This document shows positions 2,251-15,685 of a DNA stretch of 64,000 bases, piece by piece (position 1 is the first letter of the stretch; every line of letters begins with the position of its first letter). Under the pieces are notes generated by a model. That model saw nothing but the letters and a program-made list of their open reading frames with translations. It was not told the origin of the DNA and made no database searches. The position numbers and the translations under genes were made by a program. This stretch comes from Bdellovibrio sp. ZAP7. Lineage in GTDB: Bacteria; Bdellovibrionota; Bdellovibrionia; Bdellovibrionales; Bdellovibrionaceae. Location: positions 3,782,001-3,846,000 of the forward strand of contig NZ_CP030082.1 in NCBI RefSeq assembly GCF_006874645.1, read 5' to 3'.

Positions 2251-3189
2251 CTATTTACTGACTTTTCCTAGAGGCTTCAGGGGCCCCACCTTCCCTACTT
2301 TTGAAGGAAGTGCATGCTGTATTTTTTCTGACATCCAAGGATCTATCGCAATGAGCTTTTCAAGGTTTAAACCGGTTTTAATACCCATCCCGTGAAACAT
2401 ATAGACGACATCTTCAGTAGCAACGTTACCCGTTGCACCCGGGGCATAAGGGCAACCACCCAAACCACCCAGGCTTGTATCAAAGACGCGAACACCCGTC
2501 TCATAAGCGGCAAGAATATTAGCCAGTGCCTGCCCGCGAGTGTCATGGAAGTGGCCTGCCAATTTTTTAACTGGAACGACCTTTTTGATTTTCTTAAAAA
2601 GCGATTGAACTTGCCCCACATTAGCCACACCAATAGTGTCGCCAATGGAAAGCTCATACACGCCAAGCTTATGCATTCTTTGCGCAAGCTTCACCACACG
2701 AGCTTCAGGAACTTTGCCTTCAAAGGGACAACCAAAGCACGTGGAAAGATAGCCGCGCACTTTGATTTTATGCTTTTTCGCCAATGCCATCACGGGCTCA
2801 AAACGTTTAAAGCTTTCATCGATGGAACAATTGATGTTTTTCAAAGAGAAAGATTCAGAACAGGCGGCAAAGATCGCAACTTCTTTAACACCACTGGCGA
2901 TAGCGTCTTGCATACCGCGTTCATTTGGAACCAAAACAGAAAATTCAGTTTTCTTAGGAATCTGACCGGACTTTTGAAGGCCGAAAGCAAGGCTCACGAC
3001 CTCTTTTGTTCCCGCCATTTGTGGAACCCACTGCGGAGAAACAAAGGCGCCGATTTCCACACGCTTTGTTCCAGCTTCAATCAGTCGGCGAGCAAATTCA
3101 ACGCGTGTGTCGGCATCCAAAACGACTTTCTCGTTTTGCAGTCCATCTCGTAATCCCATTTCCACAATCGCAACTGAATTCTTAGGCAT
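2251..3189 (-). CDS. mvaB: hydroxymethylglutaryl-CoA lyase
   Basis: Cleaves 3-hydroxy-3-methylglutaryl-CoA to acetyl-CoA and acetoacetate, the last step of leucine degradation. The 312-residue TIM-barrel enzyme shows the N-terminal GLRDGLQNE motif (catalytic Arg14-Asp15), the metal-binding HFHDTRG motif (His213, His215) and the C-terminal GGLGGCPYAPGATGN signature with Cys246. It is the last gene of a minus-strand operon, 7 bp downstream of the biotin-carrier gene. Length is normal for the bacterial family. Confidence 0.95.
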   Translation of the reverse strand: MPKNSVAIVEMGLRDGLQNEKVVLDADTRVEFARRLIEAGTKRVEIGAFVSPQWVPQMAGTKEVVSLAFGLQKSGQIPKKTEFSVLVPNERGMQDAIASGVKEVAIFAACSESFSLKNINCSIDESFKRFEPVMALAKKHKIKVRGYLSTCFGCPFEGKVPEARVVKLAQRMHKLGVYELSIGDTIGVANVGQVQSLFKKIKKVVPVKKLAGHFHDTRGQALANILAAYETGVRVFDTSLGGLGGCPYAPGATGNVATEDVVYMFHGMGIKTGLNLEKLIAIDPWMSEKIQHALPSKVGKVGPLKPLGKVSK

Positions 3190-3196
3190 AAATTTT

Positions 3197-3574
3197 CTAT
3201 TCAGCAGAAGGTTTGATTTTCACAAGTGCTTTACCCAAAGCCACTTGCTCGCCAACAGCACAAGAAATGCTTTCAACAGTTCCCGCGATATCGCACTTAA
3301 GAGTGTACTCCATTTTCATCGCTTCCATCACCAAAACTGCCTGTCCGGCCTTCACTTCCGCACCGGCTTGAACCAGGATTTTTGTAACTTTACCTGGCAT
3401 CGGAGACATCACAGTGTCAGAGGAGCCACCAGCCCCTGCTTTCTTACGTGACTTTCGTCCTGTCCCTGCATCCATTGTGAAAGTGCGACCGTTTGCGTGA
3501 ACCCACAAATTCCCAGCAAGCAATTGCGCTTGAGCTTTGTGATCCACTCCGTTGATGCGTACTTTGACTTCCAT
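3197..3574 (-). CDS. biotin carboxyl carrier protein of methylcrotonyl-CoA carboxylase
   Basis: A 125-residue protein whose C-terminal half is a biotinyl domain with MEAMKME, the acceptor being Lys87. The N-terminal half is a short lead-in and an Ala/Gly/Ser/Lys-rich linker. The start at 3574 is chosen because its ATG overlaps the upstream stop by one base (TAATG) and is preceded by GGAGAGG. In many bacteria this domain is fused to the C terminus of MccA; here it is a separate chain, presumably joining MccA and MccB in the holoenzyme. Confidence 0.9.
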   Translation of the reverse strand: MEVKVRINGVDHKAQAQLLAGNLWVHANGRTFTMDAGTGRKSRKKAGAGGSSDTVMSPMPGKVTKILVQAGAEVKAGQAVLVMEAMKMEYTLKCDIAGTVESISCAVGEQVALGKALVKIKPSAE

Positions 3575-5070
3575 TAGATACCTCTCCAGTAAGTCATCCA
3601 TGGGGATGCACTAGCCGATGCTGTTGCACCCGCATGCTGAGTTCCGCGAGCTTGAGCCAAGGCTGCGGCTGCGATTTTCTTTTCCACTTCCGTTAGCTCA
3701 GGTTCTTTAATCGGATCAGCGAAATAAGTTTCGATGAATCTTGTTGTCATCGTGCCCATCACAAACTCTTTGTGGGACAAGATCTCGATCAAATAAGGAA
3801 TGTTAGTGTGAACGCCGAAAACCACAGAGTCCTTAAGCACACGGATCATTTTTTGAATCGCGCGCTGGCGATTTTCATCCCATACGATCACTTTCGCTAT
3901 CATCGGATCGTAATACGGTGTGATGGTATCACCAGAATCAAAACCATATTCATAACGACGACCTGGGCCCTCTGGCCATTCCACATGACCCAACAAGCCT
4001 GTGCTCGGAACTCCGCCTAGGAATGGATTTTCAGCATAGATACGGCACTCGATTGAGTGACCACGAGGAACACGGATCATTTTTGGATCGTGGATGTATT
4101 CACCTTGCGCTGTCAGGATTTGCATTTTTACCAAATCCACACCCAACACTTCTTCAGTTACCGGATGTTCAACTTGCAAACGAGTGTTTACTTCAAGCAA
4201 ATAGAATTCACCATCTTGCAAAAGGAACTCAACTGTTCCCGCCCCTTTATATTTACCCAAAGTTGCAATCGCGCACGCAGCCTCGCCCATACGACGACGA
4301 AGTTCTTCCGTCAAAGAAGGCGAAGTCGCCTCTTCGATAATTTTTTGGTGACGACGTTGAACAGAACACTCACGGTCAAAGAAATGCACAACATTTCCTG
4401 TCGCGTCTCCGAAGATTTGGAATTCAATGTGTTTGGCGCGATCCAGGTATTTTTCCAGGAAAACTTTTGGCGAACCAAAAGCAGATTGAGCTTCACGTTG
4501 TGCCGATTCAATCAACTCTGCCGCTTCAGCAGAAGATTTGATCAATTTCATACCACGGCCACCACCACCGGCAGCGGCTTTAACGATCACTGGATAACCG
4601 ATACGTTCCGCTTCCGTGATCAAGTTTGCAACTTGTTGGTTCTCGCCTTGATAACCTGGCACCAAAGGCAGGCCAGCTTTTTTCGCAAGTTCTTTACAGT
4701 GAACTTTATCGCCTAAAGAGCGAATCGCTTCCGCGGAAGGACCGATAAACGTTAAACCCGCGTTACTCACTGCCTCAGCAAAGTCAGCATTTTCTGACAA
4801 GAAACCAAAGCCGGGATGAATCGCTTGCGCACCACCAGCCAAGGCTCCATTGATATTCGCTTCGATGTTCAGATAACTCTCAGCGGTTGCTGCAGGACCA
4901 ATACAGATGGTTTTAGTCGCCATTCTGTAAGCTCGAGAATTGATGTCCGCTTCTGAGTGTAAAAGAACCGTTTCGATTCCCAACTCTTCGCAAGCTTTGA
5001 TAATACGAACCGCGACTTCTCCGCGATTAGCGATAGCGATACGAGTGAATTTTCCAGGCATTTTTGTCAT
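3574..5070 (-). CDS. methylcrotonyl-CoA carboxylase biotin carboxylase subunit
   Basis: ATP-dependent carboxylation of biotin, feeding 3-methylcrotonyl-CoA carboxylation in leucine degradation. The 498 residues show the biotin carboxylase N-domain (IAIANRGEVA, 11-20), the ATP-grasp glycine-rich loop GGGGRGM (168-174) and the catalytic EVNTRLQVEHPVTE segment (293-306). The protein ends just after the carboxylase C-domain with an Ala/Ser-rich tail; the biotinyl domain is encoded by the next, translationally coupled gene. Substrate is inferred from the surrounding hydratase, lyase and carboxyltransferase. Propionyl- or acetyl-CoA carboxylase would be the alternatives. Confidence 0.92.
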   Translation of the reverse strand: MTKMPGKFTRIAIANRGEVAVRIIKACEELGIETVLLHSEADINSRAYRMATKTICIGPAATAESYLNIEANINGALAGGAQAIHPGFGFLSENADFAEAVSNAGLTFIGPSAEAIRSLGDKVHCKELAKKAGLPLVPGYQGENQQVANLITEAERIGYPVIVKAAAGGGGRGMKLIKSSAEAAELIESAQREAQSAFGSPKVFLEKYLDRAKHIEFQIFGDATGNVVHFFDRECSVQRRHQKIIEEATSPSLTEELRRRMGEAACAIATLGKYKGAGTVEFLLQDGEFYLLEVNTRLQVEHPVTEEVLGVDLVKMQILTAQGEYIHDPKMIRVPRGHSIECRIYAENPFLGGVPSTGLLGHVEWPEGPGRRYEYGFDSGDTITPYYDPMIAKVIVWDENRQRAIQKMIRVLKDSVVFGVHTNIPYLIEILSHKEFVMGTMTTRFIETYFADPIKEPELTEVEKKIAAAALAQARGTQHAGATASASASPWMTYWRGI

Positions 5071-14274: not shown

Positions 14275-14291
14275 AGGTGCCGTCGGCACCT
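14275..14291. terminator. short bidirectional hairpin between convergent genes
   Basis: A perfect 7-bp stem AGGTGCC/GGCACCT with a 3-nt loop sits between the ABC permease stop and the stop of the deamidase-like gene. There is only a short A-run on the left and no strong T-run, so termination strength is uncertain. Confidence 0.5.
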
Positions 14292-15507
14292 AAATTCCGA
14301 GCTGCAACCAAGATAGAATTTTGTCGAAGATCTTCATGTGCAACGGCTTCGCAGGAAGCTCGTTGCGAGACTTCTGCGCGTAGTATTCAAATAGGTTTTT
14401 GAAGTAACCGTTGTACCAGCTGGATAGCAGGTGTTCTTTGTCATAGCGAAGACTTTTCCCCGCTGTCAGACGTTGGGGCTCAGTGACATACACGCGAAGC
14501 TTTCCGTCGACATCGTGATTGTGCATACGCGCGTACCATTTTTCGATAGAAACAGCTTTGCCAAAGAATGGATCAATAATCCACCAGCCGCCTTCAGAAT
14601 TTTTCACAGCCGTAGCCACGTGGAAAGTCCAAACTGTATCACCAACTAGCGCTTTCATCTGACCTACAACGTACACCTTGCGAATAGAAGCGTTGTCCAC
14701 TCCCATGCGTAAAGATTCCAAGTGCGAATTCATCGCACGACCAAAGCAAAAACCCAGGTGTCCACTGGGATCATATTTTTTTACATTCAACAGGCGAGTC
14801 ACCGGATTGCGAGTCACTTCTTCATAAATATCTTTTGCTTCAGAAGCATTGATAGAATTCTTACGACCCGTGCCTGGATTTTCAGTGGAGATTTTCTGCA
14901 TCTGCGAAAGGACTTCCGCGTTCAAAGCTGTCGCTTGTTCCGGAGTGACCTTCGCTTGATCTGCATAAAGATTTTCAGCCGCATAACGGGTCAAAGAATC
15001 ATTCACAAGCTTCGCGCCCAACAACGACACACGCTCTGGCAAAGAAAAACCAGCAAGCTCAAGAATTCGATCCTTGCGAGCAATCTGCTCTTTCGTATAA
15101 TTGTCACCAAATCCCGGAAGTGTTTCGTTCAAACCTTTTTCAGTACGCCCCAAAGCACGAGCAAATTGCAAAGCGGTCGCTTCTTGATCAGAGACCTTTC
15201 GATCCAAAAACAATTCCACTTCACGCTTTTGCAAAACATCGTGAGTCGACATAGCCATTAACAATTTAAAGAAATCTTTTTGCTCAACCAAGTTCAGCTC
15301 AGAACGCTGATTCACCACACGATCCACCAGATCCATCTGCGAATCCGTCAAAACACGATTAAATTCATTCTCAACCAAATCGCGAGTCGCCCCATAAACC
15401 GCCGAAGGCTCCAAACCAAAAACCGCCTCACAACGGCTTTGCCCATGAGCCAAGCTGACAAAAAACATAACTCCAAAAACAACAATGAAGCCGCGACCGA
15501 AAGACAT
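14290..15507 (-). CDS. secreted protein with protein-glutaminase-like Cys-His-Asp domain
   Basis: The ATG at 15507 is chosen because GGAG lies about 8 nt upstream and a signal peptide (residues 1-22, ending AHG) follows directly. The 405-residue product has a helical pro-like region (about 25-240) and a C-terminal domain with FCFGRAMNSH (Cys254), WTFHVATAV (His296) and WWIIDPFFG (Asp312). The order and spacing match protein-glutaminases, secreted enzymes that deamidate glutamine side chains in proteins and are made as proenzymes. A transglutaminase-like or papain-like peptidase is the alternative. Secretion plus a long N-terminal region fits a zymogen. The activity is inference. Confidence 0.7.
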   Translation of the reverse strand: MSFGRGFIVVFGVMFFVSLAHGQSRCEAVFGLEPSAVYGATRDLVENEFNRVLTDSQMDLVDRVVNQRSELNLVEQKDFFKLLMAMSTHDVLQKREVELFLDRKVSDQEATALQFARALGRTEKGLNETLPGFGDNYTKEQIARKDRILELAGFSLPERVSLLGAKLVNDSLTRYAAENLYADQAKVTPEQATALNAEVLSQMQKISTENPGTGRKNSINASEAKDIYEEVTRNPVTRLLNVKKYDPSGHLGFCFGRAMNSHLESLRMGVDNASIRKVYVVGQMKALVGDTVWTFHVATAVKNSEGGWWIIDPFFGKAVSIEKWYARMHNHDVDGKLRVYVTEPQRLTAGKSLRYDKEHLLSSWYNGYFKNLFEYYAQKSRNELPAKPLHMKIFDKILSWLQLGI

Positions 15508-15685
15508 GGGTTTTCTCCAATACCCCGTACCAAGCAATCCCAAGGCCAAAAAACCCGCCAACCCATTAGATTTAAAGGAAAATAACTGAACAAACCTTAA
15601 ACAAAGTCCCAAAAAACGCGAGCAGCAAGCGAAAGCGAGCTGCAAGCCACGTCCCCCTGAACGGAGTCAAATCTTCGCGAAATAA

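Follow-up and report, generated by a model that had tools for sequence, protein, structure and literature searches.

The window analysed here, a 64,000-nucleotide stretch of the Bdellovibrio sp. ZAP7 genome, encodes what is likely to be an exported thiol enzyme with the protein-glutaminase fold that would deamidate proteins outside the predator cytoplasm, and the N-terminal module of this enzyme probably places, holds or delivers it. Protein-glutaminases (EC 3.5.1.44) convert protein glutamines to glutamates. In the proposed reaction, Cys254 would attack the side-chain amide of a protein glutamine, ammonia would leave, and water would then release glutamate; the most likely targets would be proteins of the envelope or of the prey, located in the periplasm or the bdelloplast. 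We infer the deamidase activity and its substrates, any involvement in predation and the role of the module, and the reaction is a predicted one in a superfamily that also holds peptidases, transglutaminases and acyltransferases.

Table 1. Features of the gene and its product, in window coordinates.
Feature	Position	Strand	Basis
Whole gene, 405 aa; exported protein-glutaminase-like enzyme (predicted)	14290..15507	-	ORF, relatives, purifying selection
GGAG, likely ribosome-binding site	15515..15518	-	Read from sequence; 7 bases upstream of ATG 15507
Residues 1-22, signal-peptide-like	15442..15507	-	Arg, hydrophobic stretch and Ala-His-Gly ahead of likely cleavage site
Residues 100-172, undescribed module	14992..15210	-	Profile matches; shared with other exported Bdellovibrionota proteins
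Residues 189-205, predicted helix joining module to enzyme	14893..14943	-	AlphaFold2 model
Residues 206-385, catalytic domain, protein-glutaminase fold (predicted)	14353..14892	-	Profile and fold matches
Cys254, predicted nucleophile	14746..14748	-	Invariant; aligned with Cys42 of 2zk9
His296, predicted triad	14620..14622	-	Invariant; aligned with His83 of 2zk9
Asp312, predicted triad	14572..14574	-	Invariant; aligned with Asp103 of 2zk9

The ORF starts at the ATG at 15507, and its product begins with MSFGRGFIVVFGVMFFVSLAHGQSRC (Table 1). The gene is under purifying selection, which is strongest in the catalytic part (dN/dS of 0.013 and 0.052 against two relatives), and the window protein, used as query against the 4.12 Mb genome, found no second copy. 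The N-terminal sequence supports the view that the protein is exported: the segment has no lipobox on sequence reading, similar signal-like N-termini are found in relatives, and the export signal expected of a protein-glutaminase is present, as judged solely by sequence reading and a hydropathy heuristic.

The initial annotation had named Cys254, His296 and Asp312 in this ORF as residues in the order and spacing of secreted protein-glutaminases. All three are present and are among the nine invariant columns in 23 Bdellovibrionales relatives and the ten in 43 relatives from several phyla; invariance of the triad is far above chance. The residues are separated by 42 (Cys-His) and 16 (His-Asp) positions, compared with 41 and 20 in the Chryseobacterium enzyme, whose triad is Cys42/His83/Asp103 (PMC3498931). 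In the solved protein-glutaminase 8z3i the aligned His-Asp distance is about 15, and the spacing therefore varies within the family; the proposed likeness holds.

Protein-glutaminases were the sole family reached by sequence profile. The subfamily profile found PDB entry 8z3i at E 2.9e-8, and its weak alignment with 2zk9 and 2ksv (E about 0.1) pairs Cys254, His296 and Asp312 with the 2zk9 triad. A search against Pfam Gln_deamidase_2 (PF18626), which the initial annotation had suggested, gave a divided answer: the window protein matched with 19.6 bits (E 0.0011), and with 19.6-22.7 bits across the scans made, short of the gathering cut-off of 25 bits, while the full-length homologues L033 (29.0 bits) and the G005 copy (31.5 bits) exceed it. 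Because the window protein is under the cut-off, we file it as part of a divergent sister group and not as a PF18626 member. A PF18626 match at E 1 or better was found in 22 of the 23 relatives. The window protein had no meaningful match in NCBIfam.

The AlphaFold2 model has pLDDT values of 87-98 across residues 221-350. In it, a helix begins at Cys254, a strand carries His296, and Asp312 comes after the strand that follows, so that the predicted secondary structure puts the triad residues where expected; a fold that sets the three residues apart was looked for in the model and was not seen. Foldseek returned six matches at E 0.001 or better, all of them protein-glutaminases (E 1.5e-5 to 2e-4). 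Nothing in a viral structure library matched at E 0.001 or better. VIA-align gave Z scores of 10.2-11.6 against protein-glutaminases over 143-155 residues, at only 15-20% identity to the solved enzymes. With the known protein-glutaminases (PF18626; Chryseobacterium proteolyticum 2zk9, 2ksv, 3a54 and 3a56; Flavobacterium FBPG 8z3i) the window protein has in common the catalytic fold, the ordered Cys-His-Asp, the motifs C-[YF]-x-R-A, W-x-[FY]-H-V and D-P, and the export signal. Unlike them, it carries CFGRA instead of CYARA, scores below the Pfam cut-off and has an activity that is predicted. Taken together, the profile and fold matches support a putative protein-glutaminase-like enzyme with a Cys-His-Asp triad, as originally proposed.

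Two other assignments were weighed against these fold matches. The first is a deamidase (or transglutaminase) that acts on one specific envelope or prey protein, like the Tox-PLDMTX enzymes, and not a broad protein-glutaminase. SseI and the Pasteurella multocida toxin belong to the same superfamily and have the same triad and fold (Z 6.6 and 5.5, respectively), and their His-Asp spacing of 15 is near the 16 of the window protein (PMC3498931). However, the fold match to protein-glutaminases is clearly better, no Pfam or other sequence-profile match to Tox-PLDMTX was reported for the window protein (nor a Pfam match for its relatives), and the short spacing also occurs in 8z3i, which makes this assignment unlikely. 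The second is an exported envelope enzyme that acts as a cysteine peptidase or as another papain-like amide hydrolase, for example in the manner of the periplasmic protease LapG. After the protein-glutaminases, LapG gives the next-best fold match (Z 7.2-7.4), and the superfamily mixes peptidase and amide hydrolase activities (PMC10318531). NTAQ1, an N-terminal glutamine amidohydrolase that also deamidates glutamine, follows at Z 6.9 (6.2-7.4 for NTAQ1 and LapG together), and both enzymes have the papain-like core of the window protein, but their fold matches are weaker than those of protein-glutaminases and come with no sequence match. The window protein matches no peptidase family in Pfam, and the better match to a different peptidase family that would have spoken against the initial annotation was not found; we regard a LapG-like hydrolase as very improbable.

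The favoured protein-glutaminase-like enzyme is preceded in the AlphaFold2 model by about 200 mainly helical residues. The initial annotation had described some 230 residues of pro-like helix here, of which the helical character stands and the pro-region reading is not supported. An inhibitory pro-region that is removed for activation, as in secreted protein-glutaminases, would suit a helical N-terminal half that lies after a signal-like segment and ahead of the catalytic domain, and the pro-regions of characterised protein-glutaminases are 108-118 residues long (PMC9396377). We find this doubtful: residues 100-172 have counterparts in proteins that lack a deamidase, sequence alignments to protein-glutaminases span only the mature enzyme with no match to the pro-region, and many relatives have short N-termini. 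Since the module is shared with non-deamidase proteins, it is unlikely to be a dedicated protein-glutaminase pro-region or inhibitor, and in this the N-terminal half differs from the recognisable pro-region of those enzymes; residues 23-99 could be a pro-region.

The module of about 70 residues (residues 100-172) matches portions of unrelated proteins. Searches with its profiles located it in 42 of 141 genomes of the order and, across Bdellovibrionota, in 119 of 369; in the phylum that was reached through an Elusimicrobia locus, 2 of 150 genomes have it, in ORFs of 2390-2462 aa (L159, L160 and L161; G439 and G467). A module profile built without deamidase rows scored the window protein at 43.3 bits, compared with 4.1 bits for the best of 200 shuffles. 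The usual Ala-His of the module is Ala-Arg in this protein. By the same loose heuristic, a signal-like start was found in 41 of 46 carriers with complete N-termini and in 251 of 596 background ORFs. The 55 C-terminal parts of carriers fell into 28 BLAST clusters, a number that truncated ORFs may inflate, and among the partners that match Pfam are helicase, RamC-like and DnaJ domains. The module had no consistent match in Pfam, PHROGs or PDB sequences; searches of plasmids and phages did not find it, nor did a search of ten Elusimicrobia and Riflebacteria genomes with the enzyme domain. When the N-terminal half was folded alone (three sequences, pLDDT 72.6), the best PDB match had E 0.49, and a model this weak does not justify calling the fold new. 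A wider reading makes the module a general sorting, holding or release domain on many exported Bdellovibrionota enzymes and the window protein one of a modular set of prey-directed effectors, in which the partner would be a deamidase here and helicase-, kinase- or DnaJ-like parts elsewhere; we consider this conceivable and rather improbable.

Other carriers were also inspected. L040:1357-3216 (+), in G128:C9, starts with a signal-like segment, carries the module and has ResIII and Helicase_C domains after it; it is apparently an exported helicase-like protein. Several module ORFs, two of them adjacent (L075:334-2310 and 2330-4345, +), occur in the 1.4-2.0 Mb genomes of one genus (also L070 and L072; G128 and G130), which suggests a local expansion. 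The C-terminus of L019:160-2040 (-) had been read by eye as a CdiA-type nuclease; no Pfam family matches it, and we do not claim it as one.

Full-length homologues were found in four further genomes of the genus and in a second genus of the family (L033, a contig also labelled L077, Bdellovibrio sp. LF-bin-439), and the same two parts occur in a third lineage, an uncultured Bacteriovoracaceae (L099). Many other relatives have only the C-terminal domain in common with the window protein. A single-protein scan of genome contigs gave no match; a scan with an alignment of closer sequences brought a further 47 loci, from Bdellovibrionales, Bacteriovoracaceae, Oligoflexia, Elusimicrobia and Riflebacteria, and viral contigs held no relatives of the catalytic domain. 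The PF18626 cut-off is exceeded in 45 of 60 relatives, among them one canonical gene of this genome. In a tree of 34 sequences, the window group and the canonical sequences are split with support of 100/99; the tree is midpoint-rooted and shows the split, not its direction. The canonical Bdellovibrio proteins (for example, G000:C1:4048818-4049132 and L146:4555-5340) come from the same genome and superfamily and are detected by the profile of the window group, but they lie on the other side of the tree, reach 115 bits with PF18626 and lack the module. Most canonical sequences read have CYARA at the place where the window group has CFGRA. The window protein is a member of the divergent "CFGRA" group, which stands next to the canonical "CYARA" protein-glutaminases. 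At E 1e-6 the profile of the window group matched 116 of 359 genomes of the phylum, with some of these matches being canonical genes. G053 and G089 (L013, L022 and L024-L026) carry five or six copies of the enzyme domain of this group.

Genome G006, which we take to be B. bacteriovorus HD100, has two PF18626 matches and none of the window group at E 1e-6, which could explain the silence of the literature on this group. The text of the HD100 predation proteome does not mention deamidases (PMC12546842). The initial annotation knew of no characterised protein deamidase in Bdellovibrio, and the literature searched likewise yielded none; canonical relatives are present, however, in nearly every Bdellovibrio genome tested, and the protein-glutaminase kind, though uncharacterised there, is not new to Bdellovibrio.

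The window gene runs toward an ABC-2 transporter operon. Its neighbourhood is common to two near relatives and to none of three more distant ones, and this lack of conservation means that no partner or immunity gene is indicated. Scanning for promoters and terminators yielded no signal beyond chance level. Elsewhere, the canonical gene L146:4555-5340 (+) is about 4.4 kb away from the gene of a 536-aa protein that carries the module (L146:9107-10717, -), with obg-, nadD- and rlmH-like genes between them, and a similar spacing is seen in about 13 genomes of the genus. We rejected a functional link between this pair on the basis of constant spacing, since the intervening genes are housekeeping ones and common descent of the region is explanation enough. 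Elusimicrobia and Riflebacteria also have members of the enzyme group, and predation is therefore not needed to explain it.

These results document that protein-glutaminase-like enzymes of Bdellovibrio and its relatives form two distinct groups, and they name predicted catalytic residues. Protein-glutaminases are used in food processing, and new exported versions may have practical use. Roughly one in three of the Bdellovibrionota genomes searched carries the module, and the exported proteins that bear it have C-termini unrelated to one another; should it direct proteins into prey, it would provide a simple signature with which to look for effectors of predation, a class with many unknown members.
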